Positions 42,587-61,134 of a DNA stretch of 64,000 bases are shown here, in pieces. How positions within the stretch are numbered: position 1 is the stretch's first letter; every line of letters starts with the position of its first letter. Origin of the DNA: Polynucleobacter duraquae (GTDB lineage Bacteria > Pseudomonadota > Gammaproteobacteria > Burkholderiales > Burkholderiaceae); NCBI RefSeq assembly GCF_000973625.1, contig NZ_CP007501.1:1364001-1428000 (forward strand), given 5' to 3'. The notes under the pieces are model-generated. The model was not told the origin of the DNA. It saw nothing but the letters and a program-made list of their open reading frames with translations, and ran no database searches. The translations under genes and the position numbers were made by a program.

Positions 42587-43582
42587 TTACAAAGAGCTGC
42601 TAATAAAGATTAATCCGATTACAGCAATAAATACAGTTTCAACAACCAACATGACTACGGGTTGCCAACCTAATTTGGCCAACTCCTGAAAGTTGGTTTT
42701 CAGTCCAGCCGCGCCAATAGCAATTACCAACATCCAACGGGACATTTCACCAATAGATTGGGTAACTGAGCTTGGCAAAATCTGCATAGATGCAACGACT
42801 GATAGCGCCACAAACCCCAATAAGAATATCGGTATCAGGCGTAGACTTCCCCATCCTAAATGTTGAGATGATTTTTCAGCACCAAAGAAAATAGAGATAA
42901 ATAAAACGACAGGCAACAGAAGAGCGACGCGGAAAAGCTTCACAACAGTCGCTACATCCCCCGCCTCAGGGCCAAACAACATGCCCGCAGCAACTACCTG
43001 CGCCACATCATGAATGGTAGCCCCCAGAAAGATGCCAGCAGGTAAAGCGGTGATATCGAGCAACTGCAAGGCGAAAGGGTATACCACCATGGCTATAGTG
43101 GAGAGGACGGTTACCCCAACTACTACCAGGAGAGTAAATCGCTCATTCTCTTTTGTTTTTGGCAGAACTGAAGCTACCGCTAAAGCTGCTGAAGCTCCGC
43201 AAATACCAACGGATCCACCCGCAATCAATCCAAAATCTGGGGACAGCTTTAAGAGTTTGGCCAAGAAGAATCCCAAGGCTACCGTGGCAGCAACTGCAAA
43301 CATCACCATTAATCCGGTATTCAAACCAATTGCGCCAATATCAGCAAATGTAATCCGAATACCTAGAAATGCCACACCCAAACGGAGAACCGTTTTGGCG
43401 CAAAAATCAATTCCTGACTTTACTGCCTCATTGAGATATAAAAAATGGAGCGACAAACCAATCAGTAATGCGTACAACAACTGGGGGCCACCATAGTTCT
43501 CAGAAAGAAAACTGGTGGACATGGCAATGAGTAGGCAAACCAAAAGTCCTGGAGTATTTTTCCGAATGGTGGTCAACATCAA
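42587..43582 (-). CDS. suyZ: YeiH/SuyZ-family (COG2855) putative sulfate/sulfite exporter
   Basis: The 331 residues form about ten hydrophobic helices with the YeiH-family landmarks GVAFLGIRITFADIG, GGSVGICGASAALAVASVL and FLGATIHDVAQVVAAGMLFG. In Paracoccus pantotrophus, the COG2855 gene suyZ is co-transcribed with suyAB and is the proposed exporter of the sulfate formed from sulfolactate. Here it is the last gene of an operon whose first genes look like comC-suyA-suyB, one base after the GntR regulator. The symbol is by context; outside such operons YeiH function is undefined. Confidence 0.78.
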   Translation of the reverse strand: MMLTTIRKNTPGLLVCLLIAMSTSFLSENYGGPQLLYALLIGLSLHFLYLNEAVKSGIDFCAKTVLRLGVAFLGIRITFADIGAIGLNTGLMVMFAVAATVALGFFLAKLLKLSPDFGLIAGGSVGICGASAALAVASVLPKTKENERFTLLVVVGVTVLSTIAMVVYPFALQLLDITALPAGIFLGATIHDVAQVVAAGMLFGPEAGDVATVVKLFRVALLLPVVLFISIFFGAEKSSQHLGWGSLRLIPIFLLGFVALSVVASMQILPSSVTQSIGEMSRWMLVIAIGAAGLKTNFQELAKLGWQPVVMLVVETVFIAVIGLIFISSSL

Positions 43583-43583
43583 A

Positions 43584-44303
43584 CTAAGCTACCAACTCAC
43601 TGAAATACTCATGTTGAGTAGTATTTAAAGTAGAAACACGCCACTCTAGAGGCTCATCCTGAATGCCCAGCGCCACTCTTCGAATAACTAGTACGGGAGA
43701 CTCCGGATTTAATCCTAGCCATTCAGCGTGCTGTTTGCCTGCTAGGCCGGCACGCAAACGCTCGCTACTTCGCACAACAGTTTGGCCGTATTCCATTTGA
43801 TACATCTGATAAATACTACCTTTACGTTCAATAAAGTCTGCACGGGTTAAATTTTTAAACCTCTGCTTATCCAAGGTGATCTGATCGATCATGACGCACT
43901 GATCTTCCAATGACAGGCGATTGGTAATTCTCCAAACGGGTGCACCCTCTTTTATCCCTAACTTACTCGCCTCTTCCTTATTGGCAGTAGCGCTAATTAG
44001 GGAGACTAATTCAACTTTGGGGTAAACCTTTTTCTCAGCATCGTGTTTAACAATGTGAAAAAAATAATACAAAAGTCTTTTGAGATCATGCTCAACAACA
44101 TAGGTTCCCCTGCCTTGGCGTCGAACTACGATACCTTCCGCAACCAACTCGTCCACCGCTTTGCGCAGGGTACCTATAGATACATCTAACTCTTTTGACA
44201 AATCCTTTTCGGCAGGCAATGCCTGCCCCATAGGATATCGACCCCTGACCAGATCCTCGGTGATCTTTTGCTTAACTTCCTCGTAAGCGGTCAGGTTTCT
44301 CAT
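43584..44303 (-). CDS. GntR-family transcriptional regulator (HutC/UTRA type)
   Basis: An N-terminal winged helix (GQALPAEKDLSKELDVSIGT, then LRKAVDELVAEGIVVRRQGRGTYV) is followed by a UTRA ligand domain ending RRVALGIQDEPLEWRVSTLN. Length 239 is standard. It sits inside the operon between the sulfo-lyase large subunit (9 nt gap) and suyZ (1 nt gap), so it almost certainly controls this operon and its own expression. Its ligand would be a pathway sulfonate. The 30-bp palindrome at 46938-46967 is the natural candidate operator. Confidence 0.9.
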   Translation of the reverse strand: MRNLTAYEEVKQKITEDLVRGRYPMGQALPAEKDLSKELDVSIGTLRKAVDELVAEGIVVRRQGRGTYVVEHDLKRLLYYFFHIVKHDAEKKVYPKVELVSLISATANKEEASKLGIKEGAPVWRITNRLSLEDQCVMIDQITLDKQRFKNLTRADFIERKGSIYQMYQMEYGQTVVRSSERLRAGLAGKQHAEWLGLNPESPVLVIRRVALGIQDEPLEWRVSTLNTTQHEYFSELVA

Positions 44304-44312
44304 GCTGCAGTC

Positions 44313-45485
44313 TTATGCTGATTCGTATAAACGAGTCAATACGAACTCACGGTGACCGAGAATTTCAGAAGCAGTCAATTCACCATCAGCCGTACGCTTC
44401 AAGCAATCTAACAACTTGTTTCCTGCTTCATCCATATTCTCTTCGCGACGCAATAAGCCAGACACATCAACGTCGATATGCTCACCCATCGTGCGGACAG
44501 TCTTTGGATTAGCGCAAATCTTAATGACTGGAAGAATTGCATTACCGATCACATTACCCTGACCCGTTGGGAAGAAATGCGCAGTGAAGCCGGCGGCTGC
44601 ACACAAGGTGACCATTTCAGCAGCAGCTGATGATGAGTCCATAAAATGCAAACCAGGAATCTTCGGCTCCTCACCTTTATCCAGCACGCTATCCACAATA
44701 CATTTCTTACCAATTTTCTGGATATTACCCAAAGCCTTCTCTTCAATGGTTGTTAAACCACCTGCAATATTGCCTTTGGTTGGCTGAGAGTCAGAGAGAT
44801 CACTCGTCTTATGACGCTCAATCACATCCTGGTAGCGATCAAACATCTCGCGGAACTTTTTCTTCACTTCAGGAGTACGGCAACGCGCTTCAACTAAATG
44901 CTCGCCACCAGTTAACTCAGTAGTTTCACCAAACACCATGGTGGAGCCAATTTCATATAACTTATCAAAAGCATCACCCACGGTTGGGTTTGCACCACAT
45001 CCAGAAGTCGTATCGGATTCACCGCATTTGGTAGAAACCCATAGCTCAGATAATGGAGCAGAAACACGTTTTTGCTTAGATGCATGCTTCATCATGTTGT
45101 AGGCAGCTTTACTAGCGGAAGCAATGGTTGCTGTGTCGCCATTACCTTCGATCCAGAATCCCTCAACTGGCTTGCCTGATGCCTTGATGCCATCAACGAT
45201 AATTTTTGTCCATTGCGGCTCAATACCGATTACCACTACAGCAGCAACGTTCGGATTAGAACCTGTACCAATTAAGGTGCGAAAGTGTAAATCCAAGTCA
45301 GCTCCGAACTGTAAACGACCATAGGAGTGAGGGATTGCCATCGTTCCTTTGATGTTATTGGCTACTGCTTCACAGGCTGCATTGGATAAGTCATCCAAAG
45401 GCAAAATCAATACGTGATTACGAATACCCATGCGGCCGTTTTCACGGCGATAACCTAAAAAGGTCGCGTCTTTCAAATTAGTCAT
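44313..45485 (-). CDS. suyB: (2R)-sulfolactate sulfo-lyase large subunit (UxaA family)
   Basis: SuyAB cleaves 3-sulfolactate to pyruvate and sulfite. The 390-residue protein (about 42 kDa, as published for SuyB) belongs to the altronate/galactarate dehydratase large-subunit family: [19 protein letters not shown] at the N-terminus, [20 protein letters not shown], and cysteines in [20 protein letters not shown] that probably hold the Fe-S or iron centre. The assignment to sulfolactate rather than altronate rests on neighbours: a separate small SAF subunit, a COG2855 exporter and an Ldh2 dehydrogenase, with no uronate pathway genes. UxaA-type hydroxyacid dehydratase remains the alternative. Confidence 0.78.
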
Positions 45486-45527
45486 TTTTTATATCTCTCT
45501 CAATGAATAGGTAGGTCAGGTACCGGA

Positions 45528-45809
45528 TTACCAGCGCTTAGTTTTTACGTTTTGGACGTGAAGATGCTCGCCCTTTTTGATTGGGGCTACTACCTTGCCA
45601 ATATCAACGCCGTATTTCATTACCGTGTCACCTGGCTTGAAATCGTTCAATGAAATTTTGTGACCAATAGGAATGTCACTTTCAGACTTGATATTTAGAG
45701 TAAGGTCACCATCCATAACCCAACCAATTAGGTCTGTTCCAGCCTTTACATCCTCGACTACTACTACACCTACGCCATCTGCTGGCTCATGCACGACAAA
45801 GTGGATCAT
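45528..45809 (-). CDS. suyA: (2R)-sulfolactate sulfo-lyase small subunit (SAF domain)
   Basis: This 93-residue protein is a single SAF domain, the small subunit of split UxaA-type lyases. Landmarks are VHEPADGVGVVVVEDVKAGT, IPIGHKISLNDFKPGD and KYGVDIGKVVAPIKKGEHLH. Its size (about 10 kDa) is close to the 8-kDa alpha subunit reported from Paracoccus. It lies 42 nt upstream of suyB and 33 nt downstream of the Ldh2 gene, all on one strand. Altronate dehydratases are usually single-chain with this domain fused; the split favours SuyA. Confidence 0.78.
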   Translation of the reverse strand: MIHFVVHEPADGVGVVVVEDVKAGTDLIGWVMDGDLTLNIKSESDIPIGHKISLNDFKPGDTVMKYGVDIGKVVAPIKKGEHLHVQNVKTKRW

Positions 45810-45842
45810 TACTATCTCCTCAATAATCTCGTTTATAAAAAA

Positions 45843-46853
45843 CTACTCAGTCCATGACTGGCGAATGCCAGTCTGAATTTCTTCCACAACCACATCTGAA
45901 ACTGTGACGCCATCACTCAATCCTGTAGCGCGCTGCTGAAAACGACGTTGTCCAGGAAGACGGGTACCAGCATCGGCACTTAAAACCTGCAAGAAATCCT
46001 GAATACGGCTAGCGAAAATAGATGCGCCCGCCAAACCAGGATCAATCGTTAATATCAACTGTCCAATACGCGGGCGATTACCTTTAGGATCAAAAAAGGA
46101 ATCCGCCTCATAAGAAAAGCGACTACCTGAAAGTCCAACTACTAGCAATTCAACAATGAGGGCAAGCAAGGCTCCTTTATCGCCACCCAAAGGAAGCATT
46201 AAGCCCTTCAAGCCCTCTTGCGGATCAGTAGTCGGCTTACCATCTGCAGTCAATGCCCAGCCTTCTGGAATGGCTTGACCATTTTTTGCTGCAACCAATA
46301 GCTTTCCGCGGGCTACTGCGGAAAGTGACATGTCTATAACTAAAGGATCGCCGCCAGGGGTAGGGAAAGCCGCAGCTAGGGGATTAGTTCCAAAGATGGC
46401 TCTGCTACCACCAACCATTGGCATAGCAGCTGGAGTATTTCCAAACAACAAGGAGACGTAACCTGCTCGTGCCGCAGCTTCAACATAATGCCCCGCAACA
46501 CCAAAATGATGGCTATTAGTCACAGCCACTAAACCAAGACCATTTTTTGAAGCTAGACTCACCGACAGGTCAGTTGCAAACCGTAGTGCAGGAAAAGCTA
46601 GGCCATCACGCGCATCGACCAAAGCAGCTGCCGTTTTAAATGGCCGAACCCTTAACTTAGGATCTAGCTCAATTCGGCCATTTTTTGCATGTGCAGCATA
46701 TTGGGGAACTCTCGCCAAGCCATGCGAAGCCAACCCATCCAACTCCGCCAGTGCCAGAAACTGTGCAGTCTCATAAGCCGCCTTTGAATTGATACCGGCA
46801 GCCTGAAGGCCTTTGTTTGCTAGCTCAAGAATCTCTGGATAGCTCAGATTCAT
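45843..46853 (-). CDS. comC: Ldh2-family (malate/L-sulfolactate) dehydrogenase, ComC-like
   Basis: The protein has the Ldh2 fold landmarks: the catalytic His in TNSHHFGVAGHYVEAA, the cofactor-binding GTNPLAAAFPTPGGDPLVID, and GDKGALLALIVELLVVGLSG near the C-terminal half. Family members oxidise or reduce 2-hydroxy acids with NAD(P); ComC of methanogens and of Chromohalobacter acts on (R/L)-sulfolactate. As the first gene of the suyAB operon it probably interconverts sulfopyruvate and the sulfolactate isomer that SuyAB cleaves. No partner (S)-specific dehydrogenase (SlcC) is in the window. The specific substrate is inferred from context. Confidence 0.75.
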   Translation of the reverse strand: MNLSYPEILELANKGLQAAGINSKAAYETAQFLALAELDGLASHGLARVPQYAAHAKNGRIELDPKLRVRPFKTAAALVDARDGLAFPALRFATDLSVSLASKNGLGLVAVTNSHHFGVAGHYVEAAARAGYVSLLFGNTPAAMPMVGGSRAIFGTNPLAAAFPTPGGDPLVIDMSLSAVARGKLLVAAKNGQAIPEGWALTADGKPTTDPQEGLKGLMLPLGGDKGALLALIVELLVVGLSGSRFSYEADSFFDPKGNRPRIGQLILTIDPGLAGASIFASRIQDFLQVLSADAGTRLPGQRRFQQRATGLSDGVTVSDVVVEEIQTGIRQSWTE

Positions 46854-47140
46854 GAATGCTCCCCATGAATGAAGTCGCCTAAATACAGGGTTTTCAGGGC
46901 TTGACTAGATCTAGCTTTAGGGAACAAAATAACTGACATATCTGAATCATATAGATGATTTAGATATCTTGCAATACCCAATTCGTGGTGCAGCGCAGAA
47001 AGTATCTTGAAGCACTGCAGGAGGAATGGAGGAGACAGAAGTAATGAATAAGCATATAACTATTAAATAGCAGTTGAGTATATTTTTTTCATAGCGAAAT
47101 AGCTAAGATATAAAGATCAAATTACCACTGGAGGTCACCG
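46854..47140. promoter_or_regulatory. divergent control region of the sulfolactate locus
   Basis: This 287-bp gap separates the minus-strand dehydrogenase operon from the plus-strand solute-binding protein gene. It holds the 30-bp palindrome, purine-rich ribosome-site-like strings (47019-47035) and a TATATTTTTTT stretch. The binding-protein gene has its own Shine-Dalgarno GGAGG six bases before ATG 47141. Confidence 0.6.
46938..46967. promoter_or_regulatory. 30-bp near-perfect palindrome, candidate operator
   Basis: Arms ATATCTGAATCAT (46938-46950) and ATGATTTAGATAT (46955-46967) match at 12 of 13 positions around a 4-bp ATAG centre. Position and size suit a dimeric regulator such as the GntR protein of the adjacent operon, possibly controlling both directions. 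Confidence 0.65.
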
Positions 47141-48127
47141 ATGTTGAAGATTCAAAAATTGAAGATAAGCAGACGTTTAGTTTTACTTGCAGGAGCGCTG
47201 ACTCTTGCATTCCCCCAATTAGCAACAGCACAATCCTGGCCAACAAAGCCGATTAAATTAATCATTCCTTTTGCAGCCGGCGGCACCACCGATATTCTTG
47301 GCCGACTCTTAGCTCAGCAGTTAACAAAAGATTTAGGACAAAACGTCATTGTTGAAAATAAAGGCGGTGCTGGTGGCAATATCGCTGCTGAATTTGTAGC
47401 GCAAGCACCAGCAGATGGCTATACCATCATGCTCGCCTCAGGCAGTATGCTTACCGTGAATCCCAGTTTATATAAAAGATTGCCAGTAAATTACAGCAAA
47501 GATTTTGTGAACATTACTAATGTTGCTAGCGGCCCCATGTTGCTATCTGTCAGCAGCAAAATCCCAGTCAAGAATTTAAATGAATTTATTACCTATGCAA
47601 AAACTAAGGATCTGAATTTTGGCTCTGCAGGCATTGGAAGCCAAGTTCATATGGCCGCTGAAAACCTAACCTACTCTGCCAACATTCCGGCGACTCATGT
47701 TCCATATAAGGGTGAATCTGCTGCCATCAATGACTTAGTGTCTGGGCAAATCGACTTTATGGTTGGCAACCTCACTGCCGCAACAGGTTTTGCCAAAGCT
47801 GGTCAGATTAAGCCGCTTGCTGTAACTAGCGCTAAACGTGTCAAGCAACTTCCCGATGTTCCAACAGTTGCCGAAAGCGGAATCCCCGGATTTGAAAGCA
47901 CTGGTTGGTTTGGTTTAGTGGCACCGGCCAACACTCCTAAGGTCATTACGGACAAAATCTATGATGCCACTGTGAAAGCGGTGAAGTCAGATGCCATGCA
48001 AAAGAGCTTGGAGCTTAATGGCTTAACCCCGGTTGTGAATTCTCAGAAAGACTTTGATGCTCAGATTAAAGCTGAGTTAGTTAACTGGGAAAAAGTAATT
48101 AAGGGTCGCAACATTAGCACCCAGTAA
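47141..48127 (+). CDS. Bug-family (tripartite tricarboxylate transporter type) solute-binding protein
   Basis: This is a periplasmic substrate-binding protein for carboxylate uptake. A signal peptide (basic KISRR, hydrophobic LVLLAGALTLAFPQLATA, cleavage near AQS) precedes the family start WPTKPIKLIIPFAAGGTTDI. Other landmarks are ENKGGAGGNIAAEFVAQAPA and PATHVPYKGESAAINDLVSG, and the C-terminal PDVPTVAESGIPGFESTGWFG. Length 328 is standard. It diverges from the suy operon; in Chromohalobacter a TTT transporter (SlcHFG) imports sulfolactate, so that substrate is plausible. No TctA/TctB membrane genes are nearby, so it must borrow them or act otherwise. Confidence 0.88.
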   Translation: MLKIQKLKISRRLVLLAGALTLAFPQLATAQSWPTKPIKLIIPFAAGGTTDILGRLLAQQLTKDLGQNVIVENKGGAGGNIAAEFVAQAPADGYTIMLASGSMLTVNPSLYKRLPVNYSKDFVNITNVASGPMLLSVSSKIPVKNLNEFITYAKTKDLNFGSAGIGSQVHMAAENLTYSANIPATHVPYKGESAAINDLVSGQIDFMVGNLTAATGFAKAGQIKPLAVTSAKRVKQLPDVPTVAESGIPGFESTGWFGLVAPANTPKVITDKIYDATVKAVKSDAMQKSLELNGLTPVVNSQKDFDAQIKAELVNWEKVIKGRNISTQ

Positions 48128-48192: not shown

Positions 48193-48936
48193 TTACGTTA
48201 GCTGTCTAAACAATAACATTGAACCCGCAAATACTAATATCGACCCATAGGCGATGCGCATGGAAGTGTTGCTTAGCTTCGTGTGAACATGTGAGCCTGT
48301 CCATATCCCCAAGAAAGTGACAGGCATTAAGCAAACCGCGAGGCCGATTACCTCCCAGCTCAAGATGAGTCCCGTGACCAACATTAAGGTGAGCCGCAAA
48401 AATGTCAGCATAAAAATAGCGAATGCCATAGTTGCACGAAGCACTTTGGGATTATTAATTCTTAAGCCAAGGTAAGAGACATACACTGGTCCACCAGTTG
48501 CAAAAAGAGCTGTAAATACACCGCCAAAGAATCCAAATGGCACTGCCCACCATCTGTTAATTGGATCCCGAGAATCAACATTTCTTTGAACCAAAACACG
48601 CACGCCGTTAACAGCTGCAAATATCCCAAGAATCAGTAGCAAGGGTTCGCTTGGTGCCTTTACCAATAAAAAGATACCCAAGACCATTCCGACTAAGCTA
48701 AAAGGAAATAGCCATTTCAATTCTTGGATATTTGCATCGCTGGATGACTTTCTACCGATGTAAAGCGAAGCGCAGATATCAATGATGACCATCATGGGAA
48801 CTACAACCTTGAGGGGGTATATCTGTACCAGCAAAGGGACGGCTACTATTGACGAGCCAAATCCTGAAACTCCAAAGATGAAGAATCCACAAAGAACTAT
48901 TAAAGCTGATAGCGCAAATGAGGCCGGCTCAATCAA
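48193..48936 (-). CDS. TauE/SafE-family sulfite/organosulfonate exporter
   Basis: The 247 residues form about eight hydrophobic helices with the family repeats GVSGFGSSIVAVPLLVQIYP and FGFFGGVFTALFATGGPVYV. TauE/SafE proteins are putative exporters of sulfite or sulfoacetate in sulfonate pathways. Start is taken as TTG 48936, 10 nt after the flavoprotein stop, so it is the last gene of the Fe-S/cytochrome/fumarase/flavoprotein operon. Together with suyZ it gives this locus two candidate sulfur-oxyanion exporters. Confidence 0.82.
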   Translation of the reverse strand: MIEPASFALSALIVLCGFFIFGVSGFGSSIVAVPLLVQIYPLKVVVPMMVIIDICASLYIGRKSSSDANIQELKWLFPFSLVGMVLGIFLLVKAPSEPLLLILGIFAAVNGVRVLVQRNVDSRDPINRWWAVPFGFFGGVFTALFATGGPVYVSYLGLRINNPKVLRATMAFAIFMLTFLRLTLMLVTGLILSWEVIGLAVCLMPVTFLGIWTGSHVHTKLSNTSMRIAYGSILVFAGSMLLFRQLT

Positions 48937-48946
48937 TTCAAAAATA

Positions 48947-50665
48947 TTAAGCCTCTACCAAAATAGTCTCGCCAGGCTTCACCATCGTAAATTGAACTGG
49001 CCTGTTTTTAATTTCTAATCCTTCTATACCCAGATGGACAGCGGTAAAGTAAGACTCCTCCAAAGAGCCGGGCTGCGGAAAATCTTCACGATAATGCGCT
49101 CCTCTTGAGTTTTCTCGGGCAAGAGCAGCATCTGCTACCGACTTGCTCACTAAGATCAGGTTACTTAAATTCATCCAATCTTGCCAAGTAATGCTGTACT
49201 CCCTCTGGATGTCGCCAACCCCTATTTGGTGCAGCTGCTGATCTAGTTGATCGAGCTTCACGCGAGCACGTAACAAGCTTTCTCTTGTTCTGGAAATGCC
49301 CACGTCATCCCACATACATTCTGCTAGGGCATCACGAATCGATTCAATATCGCCAGCCGGTCTCTCCAATGGGGCCTCATGCGCCTTGATGCTAGCAAGT
49401 ACCTCTTCCATATTGCACTCTTGCAGACTCTGGGACACAACCCAATTTGCCATCTCTTCACCGGCAATGCCGCCAAATACAGTTGAATTAGCTACACCAT
49501 TGCCACCCAGGCGATTTGCTCCGTGCACCCCTCCAGTATCTTCACCTGCTGCAAATAAACCTGGTAACTCGGTACTGCAATCCGCCTTGAAAATTAATCC
49601 GCCCATCATGTAATGCGCAGTTGGAACGACCTCTACGAGATCTCCGGCCAAATCAAAACCGCTGTCCGCACAACGCTCGACCATGCCTTTAAATAGCTTG
49701 CGCACATTATCAGGACCTAAGTGACTCATCTGAATATAGACACCGCCGTTTGGTGTAGATCTACCTGCACGAATTTCAGAATTAATCGATCGCGAAACGA
49801 TATCCCGAGTAGCCCGTTCATTGCGCGGATCGTAGTTACCCATGAAGCGTTCTTTATTGCCATTGAGCAAATATCCGCCTGCGCCACGTAATCCTTCCTC
49901 AAGTACGGTTCCCGTCATCCTAGTGCCAGGTCCCGCCAGTAAGCCGGTAGGATGAAATTGCACCATCTCCATATCGCGCAGAGTAAGACCTGCACGAAGT
50001 GCCATAGCCAAGCCATCACAGCTCTTATCACCCGATGGTGTGTGGTACTTGTACATGGTAGGTCCACCACCGGTAGCCAGCAGAACTGCCTTTGCTCGCA
50101 CTAGGGTGAATTGACCAGTCGTCATATCGAGCATCAATACACCAGCGAGAGACTTTCCATCAGCACTATGAATTAACTCGACTGCCCTATGCTCCTCAAG
50201 TCGATGAATTCCTCTTGCCCATACTTGCTCAGCCAGTCGACTGATAATTTCAATTCCAGTTAAATCGCCCTTGTGAACTGTCCGGTCAAAAGTTTGCCCC
50301 GCAAATGCTTTTTGATGAACTGTGCCATCTGGATTGCGATCAAAGAAACAGCCGAGCTCATTCTCAAGCTCACGAATACGTTCAACCGACTTATTTACCA
50401 ATGTCCATGCCAACTCTTGGTCCGACAACCATTTACCACCTTCGATTGTGTCCATAAAATGACGTTCAACAGAGTCGCCCTCTGCCAGCGCCACGTTATA
50501 ACCACCTTGCACCATGCGAGTACAACCACATTTACCCAGCAATCCTTTTACGGCAATGGTGATGTGCAGATTTGGATTAGTTTGGTGGGCGTGTAGAGCT
50601 GCAAAAAGCCCTGCACCGCCAGAACCTAGAATGAGAATGTCTGTCTCAAGAGTAGTGATATTCAT
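48947..50665 (-). CDS. SdhA/FrdA-like flavoprotein without the covalent-FAD histidine
   Basis: The 572 residues show the fumarate reductase/succinate dehydrogenase flavoprotein plan: dinucleotide site ILGSGGAGLFAALHA near residue 12, active-site FHPTG, LEEGLRGAGGYLLN, the catalytic PTAHYMMGG and ANRLGGNGVANS. Where SdhA/FrdA have the FAD-linked His (SHT in the E. coli protein), this one reads GKCGCTRMVQGG, with Cys48 in the corresponding place, so FAD is probably not bound through His. Such His-lacking variants of E. coli FrdA keep fumarate reduction but lose succinate oxidation. It overlaps the fumarase beta gene by 4 nt and ends an unusual Fe-S-first operon. Substrate may not be succinate. 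Confidence 0.85.
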   Translation of the reverse strand: MNITTLETDILILGSGGAGLFAALHAHQTNPNLHITIAVKGLLGKCGCTRMVQGGYNVALAEGDSVERHFMDTIEGGKWLSDQELAWTLVNKSVERIRELENELGCFFDRNPDGTVHQKAFAGQTFDRTVHKGDLTGIEIISRLAEQVWARGIHRLEEHRAVELIHSADGKSLAGVLMLDMTTGQFTLVRAKAVLLATGGGPTMYKYHTPSGDKSCDGLAMALRAGLTLRDMEMVQFHPTGLLAGPGTRMTGTVLEEGLRGAGGYLLNGNKERFMGNYDPRNERATRDIVSRSINSEIRAGRSTPNGGVYIQMSHLGPDNVRKLFKGMVERCADSGFDLAGDLVEVVPTAHYMMGGLIFKADCSTELPGLFAAGEDTGGVHGANRLGGNGVANSTVFGGIAGEEMANWVVSQSLQECNMEEVLASIKAHEAPLERPAGDIESIRDALAECMWDDVGISRTRESLLRARVKLDQLDQQLHQIGVGDIQREYSITWQDWMNLSNLILVSKSVADAALARENSRGAHYREDFPQPGSLEESYFTAVHLGIEGLEIKNRPVQFTMVKPGETILVEA

Positions 50666-51273
50666 GAGGAAATTCCTAAGCTCTTTAGTACAGCCTCTTT
50701 GTTACGTGCAACGTCACTTTTTACTTCTTGATAAATACTACCGCCATGACTATCCATCGCTACTAGCAAAGGTCCAAAGTCTTTAATCTTGAAACGCCAA
50801 AGAGACTCTGGATTGAGATCGTCCATATCCACATCTTCAATTTGCTCAATCCACGTTGTCTCTAGTGCTGCTGTACCTCCGATAATTGCAAGATACACGC
50901 CACCAATTTCCTGAAAAGCTGCCGCAGATTCTTCGCGCATACCGCCCTTACCTACAATCATTCGCACGCCATTCTCGGTCATCAGTGGACGCGTAAAACG
51001 CTCCATGCGATCTGATGTGGTTGTGCCAATACAGATTGCTTGATATCCAGCTGGGAATTCCTCACTCACCGCCACCTTGCGCACATTAGGAGCCGTATGA
51101 ATTACTGCATGACCATGGAGATCAAAGCGAGTTTTTCGACCCTTATCAAACAAGTGAATCTGCGTGGCATCTCGAATACCAAATAAGGTATTTTGTAGAG
51201 TCACGGTGTCATTAATACGCAGCTTTCGAATATCCGATTCGCTAACAGGAGTTGGAAGGTTATAGTGGGCCAT
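50662..51273 (-). CDS. class I fumarase/tartrate dehydratase-type beta subunit
   Basis: The C-terminal domain of class I fumarases is recognised from RINDTVTLQNTLFGIRDATQ, CIGTTTSDRMERFTRPLMTE, IVGKGGMREESAAAF and the closing VAMDSHGGSIYQEV. At 203 residues it is the separate beta subunit of the two-subunit form, which hydrates fumarate, mesaconate or dehydrates tartrate depending on the member. It follows the alpha subunit by 8 nt and overlaps the flavoprotein ATG (ATGA). Which dicarboxylate it handles cannot be read directly. Confidence 0.88.
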   Translation of the reverse strand: MAHYNLPTPVSESDIRKLRINDTVTLQNTLFGIRDATQIHLFDKGRKTRFDLHGHAVIHTAPNVRKVAVSEEFPAGYQAICIGTTTSDRMERFTRPLMTENGVRMIVGKGGMREESAAAFQEIGGVYLAIIGGTAALETTWIEQIEDVDMDDLNPESLWRFKIKDFGPLLVAMDSHGGSIYQEVKSDVARNKEAVLKSLGISS

Positions 51274-51281
51274 CTTAATTC

Positions 51282-52157
51282 CTAAAATCCGTAAGTCACA
51301 CCATCAGGCGTGAAGGTTGCTCGCGCTCTACGAGCTGAGTGGCACTGCATATTGACAGCTACTGGATTTAAGGTGATATGAGTATGGGCAAGCTCTATAT
51401 GCACGGCAAACGCTGTGCCATCACCACCCAAGCCTTGAGGACCAATGCCTAATTTGTTCACGGCAGCAGTTAATTCTTGCTCTAACTTGGCGCCTTCTTC
51501 ATCGCTACATACGCTACCCAATGCTCTTGTAGCAGCACGCTTAGCCATTGCGACACATTGCTCAGAGGTGCCACCGATACCAACACCGACGATGGTTGGC
51601 GGACAAGTCTTGCCTCCCGCAGAAACAACGCTATCAATAACAAAGGCTTTAACGCCATTAATTCCATCAGCAGGAATGGCCATCTTCAAAAAAGAATTGT
51701 TTTCTGAACCGCTTCCTTTTGGAACCATCTCGATTTCAATCATCTCATCATCATCACAAAAATCGATGCTGATTGCTGGCATATCAATACCGCAGGATGT
51801 GTGATTATTCTTGCGCGTGATCGGATGCACTACAGAAGATCTCAATGGGTATTCAGTAGTTGCACGCTCGCAACCTTTACGAATCGCCGCCTTGAGCTCC
51901 ATGCCATCTAGCTGCACATTACGGCCAATCTTGACCTTATAAATTGGTAAACCAGTATCTTGGCAAAGTAGATTGTCCTCACGCTCGGCAACAGCAATGT
52001 TGGTGATCATGGTTTTGAGAACCACTTGAGCGCGTGCATCTGATTCGCCTTGATTTAAGCGCTCAATACCAGCTTTAACATCATCTGGCAGCACCTTTAA
52101 AGCACGAATATAGAGCTCCTTGCAAGCCTCCTCAACTGCTTTCATTTGTAGCTGCAT
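51282..52157 (-). CDS. class I fumarase/tartrate dehydratase-type alpha subunit
   Basis: This subunit carries the [4Fe-4S] cluster of class I hydro-lyases. Candidate cluster cysteines are in LLCQDTGLPIY, GGKTCPPTIVGVGIGG and NMQCHSARRARATF, all at family-typical spots. Length 291 is standard for the separate alpha chain. It follows the cytochrome b anchor gene by 11 nt and precedes beta by 8 nt. Fumarate hydration is the default prediction; tartrate, mesaconate or a substituted fumarate are alternatives given the unusual operon. Confidence 0.88.
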   Translation of the reverse strand: MQLQMKAVEEACKELYIRALKVLPDDVKAGIERLNQGESDARAQVVLKTMITNIAVAEREDNLLCQDTGLPIYKVKIGRNVQLDGMELKAAIRKGCERATTEYPLRSSVVHPITRKNNHTSCGIDMPAISIDFCDDDEMIEIEMVPKGSGSENNSFLKMAIPADGINGVKAFVIDSVVSAGGKTCPPTIVGVGIGGTSEQCVAMAKRAATRALGSVCSDEEGAKLEQELTAAVNKLGIGPQGLGGDGTAFAVHIELAHTHITLNPVAVNMQCHSARRARATFTPDGVTYGF

Positions 52158-52168
52158 AAATTATCCAA

Positions 52169-52528
52169 TCAGTTTGCTAAATACAAAAATAGAAGGCCGC
52201 AAGCAATACCAAACAAAATAGCTACTTGGGTCCAAGCCTTACGCAATCCGCGCCATGGGCCAAATTCAATCATGATGAGTCGAATTCCGCCCACCAAATG
52301 GACCGCCAATAAAATAACCAGCGCCCACTCGCCGAATTTAAAAACCCAAAAGTCCGTTAAGCCTAAGGAGCGCTCAAACCCAGTAGCGCCACGTAAAGAC
52401 TGCGAAAGCATTAAGAAATGTAAGGGAATGAAGCAAGCCAGTAGCAGCCCGGAGAATCTATGGCATGCATATGCAAAGTAAGAGAGGTGAGACTTTGCGC
52501 GTAAATCGAGCTTTGGTCTTGAGCTCAT
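52169..52528 (-). CDS. succinate dehydrogenase-type cytochrome b anchor (second)
   Basis: The 119 residues form three membrane helices with the SdhC-like HRFSGLLLACFIPLHFLML, containing the HRxSG pattern, and a His in the second helix (LLAVHLVGGIRL) suited to heme b. It overlaps the upstream anchor gene by the ATGA arrangement at 52525-52528. With the Fe-S protein and flavoprotein it would complete a membrane-bound quinone-linked oxidoreductase. Confidence 0.78.
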   Translation of the reverse strand: MSSRPKLDLRAKSHLSYFAYACHRFSGLLLACFIPLHFLMLSQSLRGATGFERSLGLTDFWVFKFGEWALVILLAVHLVGGIRLIMIEFGPWRGLRKAWTQVAILFGIACGLLFLYLAN

Positions 52529-52875
52529 AACGCACCCCCGGTAAAGACACCAATCACTGCTGTAGTCCCTAAGACGAGTATGAGAACCGCTAGCAGCGAA
52601 GATAGGGCTTTAGAAATAAATCCCTTAGAAAACGTTTCTTCGAGAATATTAGCCAAGCCAATAGGCGCATGTACAAAACAGGCTAAAACAAAAATCTCAT
52701 AAAAAATAGCAAAGGCAATATTACCTTGAGTGCGCCCCAGAATCTCCTCAGCAGTTAAGCCGCCACGTATTGCATAGAAAATAATGACAAGATGGATGCT
52801 GACGCAAAGACCCAAAACCATGGCGCTGATTCTCTGGGCATACCAAAGCTTTGCCTGCATCACGGCTTGACTCAT
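52525..52875 (-). CDS. succinate dehydrogenase-type cytochrome b anchor (first)
   Basis: Three helices are visible, with AQRISAMVLGLCVSIHLVII resembling the SdhC first helix and HAPIGLANILEETF carrying another candidate heme-ligand His. I set the start at ATG 52875, which overlaps the Fe-S gene's TGA as ATGA and gives 116 residues; an upstream start at 52887 adds four. Having two cytochrome-like anchors suggests a two-subunit SdhCD-type membrane domain. Confidence 0.75.
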   Translation of the reverse strand: MSQAVMQAKLWYAQRISAMVLGLCVSIHLVIIFYAIRGGLTAEEILGRTQGNIAFAIFYEIFVLACFVHAPIGLANILEETFSKGFISKALSSLLAVLILVLGTTAVIGVFTGGAL

Positions 52876-53603
52876 AACTTGCCCCACTTGCTTCCTCGTA
52901 CAGCAGCTCTTGCTACTAACTTTTTCAATCCGGCAATACTAGCCGTAGGTTCAAGTTTCTTAGGGCAACGCTCTGTACAGGATCCCTGCGTATGACATGC
53001 ATGGCAACCTTCATCACCAGCAACGGCACGTAGGCGATCTAATTGCTGTACATCACGCACATCATTCGTTAAGGTCCAGGCACGATTCAAGGCGGCTGGA
53101 CCGAGGTAGTTAGGGCGGCTCTGCACAACTTCACAAGAGGAATAGCACACTCCACAACCGATGCATTCGATACCAGCATTGGCTAATTGACGTTCAGGTG
53201 ACTGCGGCTCTACTCTTGCAAAATCATCATGACGGGTTTTATCCCCCTTGAAGAAACCAACCGCACCCTTCCACTTATTAAAGAACTCTCGCATATCAGT
53301 AGCAAGGTCTTTAATGACTGGTAGATTATTCAAGGGGGCAATCTCCAGGGAGTCCCCTTCAACAATCTGGGAAACGTGAGTACGACATGTCCAGCGAGCA
53401 ACGCCGTTCACTGTCATGGCGCAAGAACCACACATACCCACCCGACAAGCAAATCGGTAGCTGAGGGTTGGGTCTAGCTTACGCTGAATAAAGGTAACGA
53501 CATCCAATACCGTTTGATTTGGATTGCGAGGCACCAAATACTCAACAAACTCACCCTCTTGAGCACCGCGCCATACTTTGACTTTGAGATCTGAATTAGA
53601 CAT
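52872..53603 (-). CDS. SdhB/FrdB-like iron-sulfur protein
   Basis: All three cluster motifs are present: plant-type [2Fe-2S] CRVGMCGSCAMTVNG with a later Cys, [4Fe-4S] CIGCGVCYSSC, and [3Fe-4S] CHACHTQGSCTERCPKKLEP. Length 243 is standard. It relays electrons between the flavoprotein and the membrane anchors. It is the first gene of the operon, the reverse of the usual order in which flavoprotein precedes Fe-S protein. It diverges from the LysR gene across 82 AT-rich bases. Confidence 0.9.
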   Translation of the reverse strand: MSNSDLKVKVWRGAQEGEFVEYLVPRNPNQTVLDVVTFIQRKLDPTLSYRFACRVGMCGSCAMTVNGVARWTCRTHVSQIVEGDSLEIAPLNNLPVIKDLATDMREFFNKWKGAVGFFKGDKTRHDDFARVEPQSPERQLANAGIECIGCGVCYSSCEVVQSRPNYLGPAALNRAWTLTNDVRDVQQLDRLRAVAGDEGCHACHTQGSCTERCPKKLEPTASIAGLKKLVARAAVRGSKWGKL

Positions 53604-53685: not shown

Positions 53686-54585
53686 ATGTCCAGCATCCGA
53701 GTGCTCAAGAACTTTCTAGCTATTTCCAGGCACAAGAGCGTGGCAGCCGCTGCACGTGAAATAGGTCTTACGGCTGCCGCCGCAGGACAGCAATTGCAAC
53801 AGCTAGAAGCAGATATTGGTGTAGAGCTATTTGATAGAACCAAACGATCTATGACGCTTAATCATCATGGAAGATCGTTGGTCGAACCCATTCAAGAGAT
53901 CATTGCGCGCTATGAGGCTCTAGGATCAGACTTTAAATCTGAACTCAGTGGCACCATTGTTCTAGGCGCACTAGTCTCCACTTTAATGGGCGCTTTTGGA
54001 AATACATTAAATGAGCTCAAGCAGAACTACCCAGAGCTTGAAATTAAACTCATTGCAGGCCTTTCTAGCAACTTTCTAGAGCAAGTAATCGAAGGCAACC
54101 TAGATGCAGCAATAGTGACTGAGTCACCCTATGCATTACCCCAAAATGTTCAATGGACCGAGCTATATACAGAGCCTATGATTGTCATCCATCCAGCAGT
54201 TAAAAATAAGAAAGGGTTAACGCCGAAGCAGTTGGCCGATGAATTTCCGTTTATCCGTTTTGAACGAAATACTTGGACTGGCCATCTCGTAGATCAAACC
54301 ATTCGAGCAAATAAGCTCAACATTAAAGAAGGTATGGAGCTCAATTCTGTAGAGGCAATCATTGAGCTTGTAAGACAAGGGCTTGGATATTCAATTGTTC
54401 CCAAGCTAGCCAACGTTTCTTGGGAAAACGATCGCCAATTAAAGATATCTCAATTACCTGGAAAAACAATTTACCGAAAAGTGGGCTTACTAGAAAAACG
54501 TAAGCATTCTCGTGAAAATATTACTCAAGAGATTAAGAAATACTTCTTAGATGAAGTGATTGCAAAAAGAAAAACCACCCCGTAG
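53686..54585 (+). CDS. LysR-family transcriptional regulator
   Basis: An N-terminal winged helix (SRHKSVAAAAREIGLTAAAA, then GQQLQQLEADIGVELFDR) precedes a periplasmic-binding-fold effector domain ending VRQGLGYSIVPKLANVSW. Length 299 is typical. It is divergent from the Fe-S/cytochrome/fumarase/flavoprotein/exporter operon, so it is the likely activator of it, with a dicarboxylate or sulfonate inducer. The terminator hairpin overlaps its stop codon. Confidence 0.92.
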   Translation: MSSIRVLKNFLAISRHKSVAAAAREIGLTAAAAGQQLQQLEADIGVELFDRTKRSMTLNHHGRSLVEPIQEIIARYEALGSDFKSELSGTIVLGALVSTLMGAFGNTLNELKQNYPELEIKLIAGLSSNFLEQVIEGNLDAAIVTESPYALPQNVQWTELYTEPMIVIHPAVKNKKGLTPKQLADEFPFIRFERNTWTGHLVDQTIRANKLNIKEGMELNSVEAIIELVRQGLGYSIVPKLANVSWENDRQLKISQLPGKTIYRKVGLLEKRKHSRENITQEIKKYFLDEVIAKRKTTP

Positions 54586-56287: not shown

Positions 56288-56626
56288 TTAGTGGTTTTCT
56301 TTAGCGTGATTGATAGAGTACTTCGGTATCTCAATAACTAAGTCCTGGCGCGCCACAATAGCCTGGCAAGATAAGCGAGACTGAGGATTGAGTCCCCATG
56401 CACGGTCTAACAAATCTTCTTCATTCTCATCAGGCTCATTCAGACTCTGATAACCCTCTCTCACAATCACGTGACAGGTAGTACAAGCGCAGACCATATC
56501 GCAGGCATGCTCAATCGGAATATGGTTTTCTAGCAAGGCTTCACAAACAGAAGTGCCTGGAGTCACTTCAAGCACCGCACCTTCAGGGCAATACTCGCTA
56601 TGGGGTAGAACGACGATCTGAGTCAT
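56288..56626 (-). CDS. fdx: ISC-type [2Fe-2S] ferredoxin
   Basis: Fdx donates electrons for Fe-S cluster assembly on IscU. The cluster cysteines are in HACDMVCACTTCHVIV with the fourth in RLSCQAIV. Length 112 matches E. coli Fdx (111). It is the last isc gene, 18 nt after hscA, and precedes the DUF3300-type gene. Confidence 0.95.
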   Translation of the reverse strand: MTQIVVLPHSEYCPEGAVLEVTPGTSVCEALLENHIPIEHACDMVCACTTCHVIVREGYQSLNEPDENEEDLLDRAWGLNPQSRLSCQAIVARQDLVIEIPKYSINHAKENH

Positions 56627-56644
56627 TTGGGTAATTTTCTTTTC

Positions 56645-58510
56645 TTAAATTTCTGCAACATTCTTACCGGCCAATGCCCTCTTAATACTGGCATTCATAC
56701 GCTTTTGAGCAAACTCGTCGGTAGCCTTGGCAGCATGATCGACTGCTTTTCTGAGAATGGCGCTATCAGCTTCTTCTGTAAGTAACTTTTGCAAGACGGC
56801 CATTTCTTGATCAACCTCAGCCTGCTCTTGAGAGTTCAATAATCCACGATCAGAATCCAAAGCAGTTTGTACGGCATCTAGTAATCGTTGGGCATTCACT
56901 TGCTCTTCACGCAAAGATCTTGAGAGAAGATCTATTTTGGCCGAGGCAAATCCATCTTGCAGCATGCGGGCAATTTCAGCATCAGTCAAACCATATGATG
57001 GCTTAATATCTATTGAGGCTTGCACACCTGAACCCTGCTCCATGGCGCTAACGGAAAGTAATCCATCTGCATCCACTTGATAGGTCACCCGAATACGGGC
57101 AGCCCCGGCAGCCATTGGTGGGATGCCACGCAATTCAAACTTGCCTAAGGAGCGGCAGTCTTGTGCCAACTCTCTCTCGCCCTGCACCACCTGAATCGCT
57201 AAAGCGGTTTGGCCATCTTTGAAGGTTGTGAAATCCTGAGCACGCGCTACCGGAATAGGTGTGTTGCGAGGAATAATTTTTTCTACCAAACCACCCATGG
57301 TTTCAATGCCAAGAGACAGCGGAATGACATCTAAGAGGAGCCACTCATCATCCTTGCTTTGATTACCAGCAAGTAAGTCAGCTTGCATTGCAGCGCCTAA
57401 AGCAACAACCTGATCTGGATTGAGATTGTTTAAGGGTTTGGTACCAAAGAGCTCGCCCACCGCACGTTGCACCTGAGGCATGCGAGTTGCTCCACCAACC
57501 ATCACGACACCTTTGACTTCATCAGTTTTAAGGCCTGCATCGCGCAAAGCCTTCTTCACAGCAACTAAAGTCTTATTGATTAAGTTTTGGGTGATTTCAA
57601 AAAACTGAGCTTGGCTAACTCCCACATTAATCACAGTGCCATCTGCAAGGGCTTCATGAACGCGTGCTAACGGGTTATGACTCAATTGCTCTTTCGCATG
57701 TTTGCAAGAGAGCAAGAGCTTACGGTGATCCTGAATCGATAGTGGTGGAAGCTTAGCTTGCTCAATCACCCAACAATAGAGACGATGGTCAAAATCATCA
57801 CCGCCCAAAGCAGAATCGCCACCAGTAGAGAGCACCTCAAATACCCCTCTGCTCATACGCAAAATGGAGATATCAAAAGTGCCGCCACCTAAATCGTAAA
57901 CTGCGTAGATACCCTCGGAGGCGTTATCCAAACCGTAAGCAATGGCAGCAGCGGTAGGCTCATTGAGTAGACGTAAAACTTCAATACCAGCCAACTTCGC
58001 AGCATCTTTAGTTGCTTGACGTTGAGCATCATCAAAATAAGCGGGCACAGTAATCACCGCACCAACGATGTCGTCATTTACCGAGTCTTCCGCCAACTGG
58101 CGCAAGCGTGCCAGAATTTCTGCTGAAACTTCAATGGGGCTCTTATCACCCGCCACTGTTTTGATCTTTAACATCCCGGGCTCGTCTACAAAGTCGTAAG
58201 GAGTGCTTTCGATATTCTCTACATCCACAATACCCCGGCCCATGAAACGTTTCACAGAAACAATCGTGTTTTTAGGATCAGAGACAATACTTTCGGCAGC
58301 CTCGAAACCCGCTTGAGTTCTGCCATTTGGGAGATAACGCACCACTGAAGGGAGTAATTCGCGCCCCTCTGAATCAGGGAGAACTTGAGGTAAGGCATCC
58401 CGCACAATTGCGACTAAGGAGTTAGTAGTACCTAAATCAATACCTACCGCAATCCGACGCTGATGCGGAGCAAGTGATTTACCAGGTTCGGAGATTTGTA
58501 ATAAGGCCAT
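56645..58510 (-). CDS. hscA: Fe-S assembly Hsp70 chaperone HscA
   Basis: HscA is the DnaK-like ATPase that, with HscB, releases clusters from IscU. The N-terminal phosphate-binding [14 protein letters not shown], connect motif [13 protein letters not shown] and the substrate-binding domain ([20 protein letters not shown]) are in order. Length 621 is typical of HscA, shorter than DnaK. It lies between hscB (18 nt) and fdx. Confidence 0.96.
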
Positions 58511-58528
58511 GGGGTCTAGAGTGTAAAG

Positions 58529-59068
58529 CTATACCAAAGCTGAGATAGCATCATCTAGCTCTAGCGCAAACTTATCAATAAAAAGCAGCCCTCTGAGTAA
58601 CTCAGCTGCGCGCTCATAGTTTTTAGCTCTATCAATAGCCTGTGTAATTTCTACCAGGATATCTTGTTTGGCTTGATCAACCTCTTCAGCTAGAGCTTCG
58701 AGAGCCCCAAGATCCTCATCTTGGTCTTCGAGACTTTCACGCCATTCCATTTGCTTCATCAGAAAAGCAGCAGGCATGGCCGTATTGGTCTCAAGACGCG
58801 CATCCACTTTGTGGAGTTGGCAAAGATAGAGCCCGCGCTGAATGGGATTTTTCAAAGTTTGAAATGCTGTATTTGCTAGGGTAGCCATTTGCATTGCCAA
58901 TCTTTGCTCGGTATCGCTACCGCGAGCATGGCGATCAGGATGTACTTCTTTTTGGATCGCCAAATAGGCTTGATCTAGTGCAGACAAATCGAGATTGAAT
59001 TGCTGCTCTAAACCAAAGAAATTAAAGTAATTGTCAGACGCGGAAGGATTCACCACAACCACACTCAT
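58529..59068 (-). CDS. hscB: Fe-S assembly J-domain co-chaperone HscB
   Basis: The J-domain has the HPDR motif ([13 protein letters not shown]) around residue 43, and the C-terminal IscU-binding helical domain includes [14 protein letters not shown]. Length 179 matches the family (171 in E. coli). Its ATG lies inside iscA, a 35-nt overlap; no better start is visible in frame since the N-terminal [11 protein letters not shown] is family-typical. Confidence 0.94.
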
Positions 59069-59357
59069 CTTTTACATTCGGGTTTTGGAACTTAAAGCCT
59101 TCGTTCAAACCTTCACGTACAAAGTCTAATTCGGTGCCATCTAAATAGGCCAAGCTCTTAGGATCAATAAAGATAGTGATGCCATTAGATTCAAATTTTG
59201 CATCTTCAGGGGCAGCCTCATCCACGTACTCCAATTGATAGGCTAAGCCCGAGCAACCAGTGGTGCGAACACCCAAGCGTAAGCCGCAACCTTTTCCGCG
59301 CTTATCTAAATTGCGCTGAACATGTTTTGCTGCTTTGTCGGTTAAGGTAATTGCCAT
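59034..59357 (-). CDS. iscA: A-type Fe-S carrier IscA
   Basis: IscA passes iron or Fe-S clusters to target proteins. The three conserved cysteines are present in [11 protein letters not shown] and DECGCGESF. The start at ATG 59357 gives [14 protein letters not shown], the family N-terminus, and 107 residues; the frame stays open upstream but that part belongs to iscU. It is 19 nt downstream of iscU and overlaps hscB. Confidence 0.95.
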
Positions 59358-59376
59358 GATGAAAGCCTCTTTATCT

Positions 59377-59763: not shown

Positions 59764-59831
59764 GGTGTTTTCTCGCTATCTCTTTTATCTTTAATCTTGC
59801 TTCAATATATTCAATGCTGATTCAATAATTC

Positions 59832-61091: not shown

Positions 61092-61134
61092 TTTTTGCTT
61101 ATCGATTTATAGGTAAAGAGATGAATCTCTTGGA

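Follow-up and report, generated by a model that had tools for sequence, protein, structure and literature searches.

A sulfolactate sulfo-lyase operon of Polynucleobacter duraquae adjoins a complex-II-like and fumarase-like operon that may supply it from 3-sulfopropionate

Results

We analysed a 64,000-nt stretch (hereafter 'the window') of the Polynucleobacter duraquae genome, a single contig of 2.03 Mb (NZ_CP007501.1, positions 1,364,001 to 1,428,000). An initial annotation of the window had described a five-gene sulfolactate-degradation operon, comC-suyA-suyB-gntR-suyZ, running in one direction with gaps of 1-42 nt and including a split UxaA-type lyase of 93 + 390 residues. All five open reading frames (ORFs) were found on the minus strand (Table 1), with intergenic gaps of 33, 42, 9 and 1 nt in that order, and their positions, spacing and Pfam domains agree with that description; the lyase consists of an adjacent SAF-type small subunit (SAF domain score 21.8 bits, cut-off 21) and a large subunit with the UxaA core. 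Upstream lies a second minus-strand operon, sdhB-sdhC-sdhD-ttdA-ttdB-frdA-tauE, which encodes a complex-II-like enzyme, a split fumarase-like hydratase and an exporter, and whose genes overlap or are separated by no more than 11 nt; the initial annotation had overlooked its link to the suy genes. The functional unit probably extends past the end of the operon as annotated, to about position 54585.

SuyB shares 74% identity with its counterpart in Cupriavidus pinatubonensis (record of strain HN-2) and 62% with that in Paracoccus versutus, and SuyA shares 56% with C. pinatubonensis SuyA. Matches to SuyB in plasmid records fall into two tiers among the 40 of 316 records listed: 13 records, including C. 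pinatubonensis HN-2 and P. versutus, have at least 57.8% identity, and the next has at most 41.5%. Identity to UxaA, GarD and a paralogue in the same genome is 29-31%, and a quick-method tree of 22 rows, in which the outgroup has long branches, separates 17 SuyB rows from these proteins. The large subunit thus groups with SuyB of known sulfolactate clusters, which bears out the assignment of the lyase as SuyAB and answers the phylogenetic check proposed with it; altronate or galactarate dehydratase is ruled out by the same identities and tree. Identity, tree and the adjacency of SuyA support an (R)-sulfolactate sulfo-lyase, the activity being predicted. A passage in PMC6336799 describes SuyAB as lacking Cys residues conserved across the rest of the superfamily. 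Our alignment has four columns (in alignment numbering) with Cys in UxaA, GarD and the own-genome paralogue; all SuyB rows retain the Cys in one of these columns and lack it in the other three. Split relatives with 34-41% identity show the same pattern, so that it does not discriminate SuyAB. A second UxaA/GarD-family gene of the genome (L001, 610303-610731; 518-codon open frame) is 31% identical to SuyB.

The gene order of the suy operon is repeated in relatives, with gntR directly 3' of suyB in 51/51 Polynucleobacter-type loci and suyA present in 49/51; because the identical order recurs, the arrangement is not due to chance. SuyZ carries the PF03601 domain and is 45% identical to the exporter adjoining suyAB in P. 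versutus, in agreement with its description as the COG2855 exporter of the operon; it scores below the TIGR00698 cut-off (144 versus 232.6). For ComC, the best NCBIfam model is L-sulfolactate dehydrogenase, at 214 bits and under the curated equivalog cut-off of 500, and the comC-like protein of the one-piece cluster L106 (described below) is likewise under it (217 bits). ComC is likely a sulfolactate dehydrogenase, mainly from its context, and is 45% identical to a homologue near suyAB in Sinorhizobium mexicanum. The expectation that generic annotation would hide the pathway holds for NCBI records, which read UxaA family hydrolase, but among the 120 rows listed many from JGI already read '(2R)-sulfolactate sulfo-lyase subunit beta'. 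A contig filed as Thermoflexus hugenholtzii (L028) bears a Polynucleobacter-type suy cluster with 89% identity in SuyB, and is probably a mis-binned contig of a metagenome-assembled genome. In the one-contig Polynucleobacter genome G399 (C1:1095241-1095933), the match covers only SuyB residues 160-390, in a 231-codon frame, which suggests decay of the pathway.

The first hint of a link between the two operons came from matches to ttdA, ttdB and frdA beside suyAB in Massilia, Herminiimonas and other genera. We searched the same 300 genomes of the order for SuyB (E 1e-110), the FrdA-like flavoprotein (E 1e-170) and HpsN (E 1e-130). SuyB occurs in 51/300 and the flavoprotein in 39/300, with both in 38 (Fisher p 8e-36); for comparison, hpsN, whose role with sulfonates is established, occurs in 9/300, 8 of them with SuyB. 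Since relatedness inflates the p value, we also counted by genus: all 20 genera with the flavoprotein are among the 24 with SuyB, out of 134. Within the genus Polynucleobacter (151 genomes), SuyB is present in 72, the flavoprotein in 64 and both in 59 (p 6e-23); across the phylum the corresponding figures are 14/388, 9/388 and 5 (p 3e-6). Of the 38 genomes of the order with both genes, 30, including that of P. duraquae, have them within 25 kb on one contig; the other eight have them on different contigs (seven) or 1.9 Mb apart (one). In 27 of the 30 co-located cases frdA lies downstream of suyB on the same strand, in P. duraquae it lies upstream, and in two the genes are on opposite strands; spacing and intervening genes vary. 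A chance neighbourhood is hard to hold against this co-occurrence, co-location and spread over genera. HpsN has no match in the P. duraquae genome at the threshold used, and hpsN is rare in the order; we therefore reject an HpsN-type feeder for 2,3-dihydroxypropane-1-sulfonate (DHPS).

Of 35 NCBIfam models, the 25 shown, including SdhA, FrdA, TfrA and NadB, all score the flavoprotein below their cut-offs (best scores versus cut-offs: TfrA 526.6/718, sdhA_frdA 438.5/567.3, nadB 364/453). In an alignment of 56 rows, in which the window gene is present twice, the catalytic residues Arg288, His233, His356 and Arg391 (E. coli FrdA gene numbering) are invariant. His45, which carries flavin adenine dinucleotide (FAD) covalently as 8-alpha-histidyl FAD, is replaced in all 56 rows and in all 42 clade rows of a second alignment; the two alignments disagree on the residue that faces it, which is Cys in the first and Gly in the second. 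Three further changes are invariant in the 56 rows, namely Thr245 to Glu (beside a conserved Glu), Val47 to Arg (in the flavin loop) and Ala128 to Lys. The signature is found in 42/42 clade rows and 0/7 outgroup rows of the second set, where position 128 is Lys or Arg, and extends to two proteins of 51% identity, one from Rhodococcus jostii, where Arg replaces Lys, and one from a haloarchaeon. The clade stands apart from SdhA, FrdA and NadB with 100% support in the Shimodaira-Hasegawa-like approximate likelihood ratio test (quick method, some long branches). Where the linked flavoprotein is named, it is annotated as fumarate reductase, L-aspartate oxidase or FAD-binding protein. One Polynucleobacter genome (G325, C15:10885-12552) encodes a second flavoprotein of this kind, 52% identical.

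Both hydratase subunits carry their expected domains, Fumerase (alpha) and Fumerase_C (beta). They are 31% and 34% identical to E. coli TtdA and TtdB, fall under the NCBIfam tartrate dehydratase cut-offs, and have the two-chain fumarase 7xky as closest solved relative by sequence. The P. duraquae genome also has an ordinary succinate dehydrogenase (SDH) flavoprotein and another class-I fumarase gene, so that the complex-II-like enzyme and hydratase of the window are not needed for the tricarboxylic acid (TCA) cycle.

Table 1 Features of the suy operon and its neighbourhood in the window
Feature	Position (strand)	Basis or remarks
suyZ, putative sulfite/sulfate exporter (YeiH/COG2855-type)	42587..43582 (-)	Pfam Cons_hypoth698 (PF03601); TTG start
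gntR, regulator within the operon	43584..44303 (-)	Pfam GntR + UTRA
suyB, predicted (R)-sulfolactate sulfo-lyase large subunit	44313..45485 (-)	390 aa; Pfam GD_AH_second + GD_AH_C
suyA, predicted (R)-sulfolactate sulfo-lyase small subunit	45528..45809 (-)	93 aa; Pfam SAF
comC-like Ldh_2 dehydrogenase, probable (R)-sulfolactate/sulfopyruvate dehydrogenase	45843..46853 (-)	Pfam Ldh_2
slcC remnant in comC leader (SlcC residues 8-31), deletion scar	46886..46957 (-)	62.5% identity, E 4e-6 against the window alone
TctC/Bug substrate-binding protein, candidate sulfonate receptor	47141..48127 (+)	Pfam; Bug genes inside clusters of some other genera
TauE/SafE exporter	48193..48936 (-)	Pfam
FrdA-like flavoprotein, proposed 3-sulfopropionate dehydrogenase flavoprotein	48947..50665 (-)	Domains, alignment, tree
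Class-I-fumarase-like beta subunit (type I), proposed sulfoacrylate hydratase	50662..51273 (-)	Pfam Fumerase_C
Class-I-fumarase-like alpha subunit (type I), proposed sulfoacrylate hydratase	51282..52157 (-)	
Complex-II-like membrane subunit (Sdh_cyt)	52169..52528 (-)	
Complex-II-like membrane subunit (Sdh_cyt)	52525..52887 (-)	
Complex-II-like iron-sulfur subunit (SdhB/FrdB-like)	52872..53603 (-)	
Divergent LysR, likely regulator of the complex-II-like operon	53686..54585 (+)	

The initial annotation had called the suy operon complete, which does not hold. In the 43 Polynucleobacter-type loci that combine a Bug gene with comC, slcC separates the two in 30, is absent from 12, and in one (L029) stands beside comC in a different arrangement. 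The gene is thus kept in 31/43 comparable loci; at the window locus it has been deleted to a remnant, and a remnant is also found in 9 of 12 other loci without slcC (E up to 0.008). A search of the whole genome found no close SlcC elsewhere, only three relatives at 28-30% identity (best 30%). A passage in PMC12421959 describes SlcC and ComC as acting as a racemase pair. With slcC reduced to a remnant, this pair is broken in the window lineage, unless one of the 28-30% relatives could replace SlcC.

We read the loci of relatives by tblastn, as automatic ORF calls mislabel GC-rich loci. One-piece clusters occur in other genera, as in L106, which reads gntR / suyA-suyB-slcC-comC-sdhB-two membrane subunits-Bug-ttdA-ttdB-frdA. 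L104 and L112 combine suyA and suyB with a thiamine-diphosphate enzyme, the complex-II genes, Bug, ttdAB, frdA and comC; the cluster of L101 lacks comC, and that of L111 has hps genes interposed. In L101, L104, L106, L107, L112 and L114 the cluster encloses the Bug gene, which follows the membrane subunits and precedes ttdA, and LysR is divergent from the complex-II-like genes in L062, L066, L074, L114 and L115, as it is in the window. Sulfite exporters lie near the complex-II-like enzyme in several relatives, and a sulfite oxidase or dehydrogenase in some.

Other genes recur around these clusters. The thiamine enzyme (family f39) occurs in 8/29 compared loci and an NMT1-type binding protein (f65) in 6/29. 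An acetolactate synthase/2-hydroxyacyl-CoA lyase-like thiamine-diphosphate enzyme lies beside the FrdA-like gene in L106 (13549-15174), L114 (6483-8123) and L123 (12946-14571); identification as Xsc is rejected, since the scores of 192 and 200 bits fall far short of the Xsc cut-off, 676. A sulfatase-family gene with a choline-sulfatase C-terminus (family f108) lies downstream of suyB in two related genomes, L110 and L111 (L111 3338-4903). In the window itself, genes for iron-sulfur cluster (ISC) assembly (ferredoxin, hscA, hscB, iscA, iscU, iscS and iscR-like, from ORF reading) occupy 56288-61704, just beyond the complex-II/hydratase operon, itself rich in iron-sulfur proteins.

The hydratase comes in two types. 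Of 78 FrdA-bearing loci, 10 were shorter than 9 kb and 5 lacked a ttdA match over 60% of its length, which left 63 for typing. Type I (at least 63% identical to the window hydratase) accounts for 51/63, with SuyB within 20 kb in 48/51 (the exceptions are L107, L114 and L156). Type II (at least 66% identical to that of P. versutus) accounts for 12/63, with SuyB within 20 kb in 0/12; in P. versutus itself SuyB is at 23 kb, the complex-II-like cluster there being about 22 kb from suyAB. Because many type I loci were selected by SuyB, and some are near copies, the unbiased figure for linkage is 38/39 from the survey of the order. Between the two types, alpha subunits are 32-38% and beta subunits 23-27% identical. 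The alpha subunit of L165 matches type II at 78% identity and type I at 33%. All four phylum genomes with the flavoprotein and without SuyB carry type II. A methylmalonate-semialdehyde dehydrogenase (MMSDH) gene is present in 3/12 type II loci, of which one supplied the query sequence, and several type II loci bear YeiH-type or TauE exporters, NIPSNAP, or sulfite oxidase/dehydrogenase. The small NIPSNAP-family protein lies beside type II clusters of Paracoccus, Pseudorhizobium and Pseudomonas (L122 13636-13950, L126 14485-14799 and L127 15141-15467).

Two haloarchaeal plasmids (L162 and L166) encode the flavoprotein (49-51% identical) beside SdhB-like, ArgH-family, TauE and split UxaA genes; the Haloarcula plasmid locus also has an Ldh gene. 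Membrane subunits are not annotated beside the flavoprotein in either, and the large UxaA proteins are 34-35% identical to SuyB. We considered a third hydratase here, of the type of XcbC, an enzyme that makes sulfoacrylate. This candidate is weakened by the scores of the ArgH-family protein of L162, which exceeds the argH cut-off (323 bits versus 279.5), falls far under that of XcbC (260 versus 575) and matches XcbC no better than other ArgH-type models; it is possibly a true argininosuccinate lyase.

Discussion

We propose, with moderate confidence, that the two adjacent, linked operons form one sulfonate pathway that begins with 3-sulfopropionate and ends in pyruvate plus sulfite. With a sulfonate in place of one carboxylate, 3-sulfopropionate corresponds to succinate, 3-sulfoacrylate to fumarate, 3-sulfolactate to malate and sulfopyruvate to oxaloacetate. 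The Bug-type receptor would help to import 3-sulfopropionate, which the complex-II-like enzyme (48947-53603) would oxidise to 3-sulfoacrylate, passing the electrons to quinone. The split hydratase would add water to give (R)-3-sulfolactate, and SuyAB would cleave this to pyruvate and sulfite, with SuyZ and TauE exporting sulfite or sulfate and ComC interconverting (R)-sulfolactate and sulfopyruvate. The complex-II/fumarase-like operon may thus supply (R)-sulfolactate to SuyAB, although free sulfolactate or cysteate, as named in the initial annotation, may still be a growth substrate. By the naming rules, hydration at the face that yields L-(S)-malate yields L-(R)-sulfolactate, the substrate of SuyAB; a racemase would then be superfluous, in keeping with the loss of slcC at this locus. 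The cleavage by SuyAB is the only step for which characterised relatives argue. Our data show the gene content, the linkage across genomes, the residue signature and the placement of SuyAB by sequence, whereas the starting compound, the direction of the pathway and its first two steps are inferred.

Several observations weigh against this proposal. An invariant additional Glu close to where the substrate binds is unexpected if that substrate is anionic, and variants of E. coli fumarate reductase (FRD) suggest that a flavoprotein may be poor at oxidising succinate-like compounds when its FAD is not covalently bound, unless here a Cys of the KCGCT motif binds FAD instead. The hydratase alpha subunit exceeds the curated fumarate hydratase cut-off (312.6 versus 276), so that it may be a plain fumarase. 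The linkage is looser past the order, where 5/9 phylum genomes with the flavoprotein have SuyB, and 2/6 outside the family (p 0.009). In the order 13/51 SuyB genomes lack the flavoprotein, and in the genus 13/72 do, while 5/64 flavoprotein genomes lack SuyB. Relatedness inflates the p values in general, and the mostly uniform gene order (27/30) may reflect a single inherited cluster. No gene for the synthesis of 3-sulfopropionate was recognised beside the type I clusters.

One alternative is a plain sulfolactate or cysteate operon, as in the initial annotation, next to which the complex-II-like and fumarase-like genes serve ordinary C4-dicarboxylates by incidental neighbourhood. SuyAB and ComC would be enough for (R)-sulfolactate or sulfopyruvate, and the SuyB genomes without the flavoprotein and the fumarate hydratase score of the alpha subunit fit this explanation. 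We nevertheless consider it unlikely in view of the co-occurrence in 38/39 genomes, the co-location in 30/38 and the spread over 20 genera, the ordinary SDH and second fumarase already in the genome, and the separate clade of the flavoprotein with its invariant active-site changes. A C4 substrate, sulfosuccinate, would pass through sulfofumarate and sulfomalate, then by oxidation and decarboxylation to sulfopyruvate, which ComC would reduce to (R)-sulfolactate for SuyAB. Such a route would give ComC a role, a complex-II fold suits a C4 skeleton, and Bug receptors bind di- and tricarboxylates. It would, however, need an extra dehydrogenase and a decarboxylase, which the window cluster lacks; the MMSDH genes in 3/12 type II loci (one the query source) fit a C3 product, malonate semialdehyde, and the precedent from a thesis mentioned in PMC11489063 is also C3. 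Together these points make sulfosuccinate a distinctly doubtful substrate.

Two further explanations keep the enzymes closer to their usual roles. Sulfite-tolerant copies of SDH and fumarase might keep the TCA cycle running during sulfite release, in line with their co-occurrence with a sulfite-releasing enzyme and exporters. Plain succinate oxidation, however, fits poorly with the loss of the covalent-FAD His and the invariant residues around the substrate. Four phylum genomes also have the flavoprotein without SuyB (other sulfite sources were not searched there), and we regard this explanation as improbable. It is more improbable still that the complex runs as a sulfoacrylate reductase, with conversion of sulfolactate to 3-sulfopropionate as an electron sink. 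The flavoprotein does resemble fumarate reductases, and non-covalent flavin favours reduction, but SuyAB, the sulfite exporters and the sulfite-oxidising enzymes point to breakdown, and the hosts are mostly aerobic.

Returning to 3-sulfopropionate oxidation, a wider and more tentative proposal, which we put at somewhat under an even chance, is that a widespread but so far overlooked branch of complex II oxidises this compound, paired with type I, type II and perhaps haloarchaeal ArgH-family hydratases, and so mirrors the succinate-fumarate-malate sequence. In loci without SuyAB, the type II enzyme would hydrate the other carbon to 3-hydroxy-3-sulfopropionate, which would lose sulfite to give malonate semialdehyde and then acetyl-CoA. 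This suggestion of direct sulfite loss draws on the MMSDH genes in three loci and the absence of SuyAB nearby; type II genomes may use Xsc or CuyA instead.

A thesis (J. Mayer, Konstanz), cited in a sentence of PMC11489063 that names no genes, describes a route from homotaurine through 3-sulfopropionate and sulfoacrylate to sulfolactate in Roseovarius nubinhibens ISM, the same intermediates as proposed here. A reference title in PMC4334477 assigns the breakdown of sulfolactate in that strain to Xsc and CuyA rather than SuyAB. Passages in PMC11489063 describe the degradation of 3-sulfopropionate as otherwise unreported, state that Bilophila can use it, and trace its formation to a fermenting bacterium, from sulfoquinovose and DHPS, and to others, from homotaurine; a passage in a 2026 review calls the mechanism of its breakdown in Bilophila unclear (PMC12890257). 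Our search of the open-licence literature found no genes for a route from 3-sulfopropionate to sulfolactate, and nothing relevant on sulfosuccinate genes, on Polynucleobacter with sulfolactate, on sulfolactate with SDH or fumarase, or on sulfoacrylic acid with coenzyme M. If the proposal is correct, it names candidate genes for the breakdown of 3-sulfopropionate and gives freshwater bacteria a further path from organosulfonate sulfur back to sulfite. Proteins that carry the names fumarate reductase, L-aspartate oxidase and fumarate hydratase would turn out to be sulfonate enzymes, and with the flavoprotein in 39/300 sampled genomes of the order, relabelling would touch many genomes.

Among known systems, the hpsRNOUP-suyAB cluster of C. 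pinatubonensis, which converts DHPS through sulfolactate to pyruvate and sulfite, shares SuyB, SuyA and a Bug gene, which lies downstream there. Passages in PMC11382572 describe this cluster, with which the HN-2 record (hpsN-hpsO-MFS-dehydrogenase-suyA-suyB, MFS being the major facilitator superfamily) agrees, and others there and in PMC12890257 give SuyAB as its final step. Its feeder is HpsN/O/P, in whose place the window has the complex-II-like enzyme and the hydratase. The gntR-suyA-suyB-suyZ arrangement of P. versutus shares SuyA, SuyB, SuyZ and GntR, but there GntR is divergent and upstream of suyA, whereas in the window it lies inside the operon, a difference from Paracoccus that the initial annotation had rightly pointed out; P. 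versutus also lacks comC next to suyAB, and its complex-II-like cluster has the type II hydratase in place of type I. The complex-II-like enzyme of the window shares with SDH and FRD the four subunits with their usual domains and the catalytic Arg and His residues, and differs in lacking the covalent-FAD His, in its invariant Glu, Arg and Lys/Arg, and in forming a separate clade. The hydratase has both subunits of class I fumarase and TtdAB, from which it differs in missing the tartrate cut-offs and in the SuyB nearby in most type I loci. The suy operon itself is a new member of an already known kind, and the proposed complex-II-like feeder is the unexpected part.

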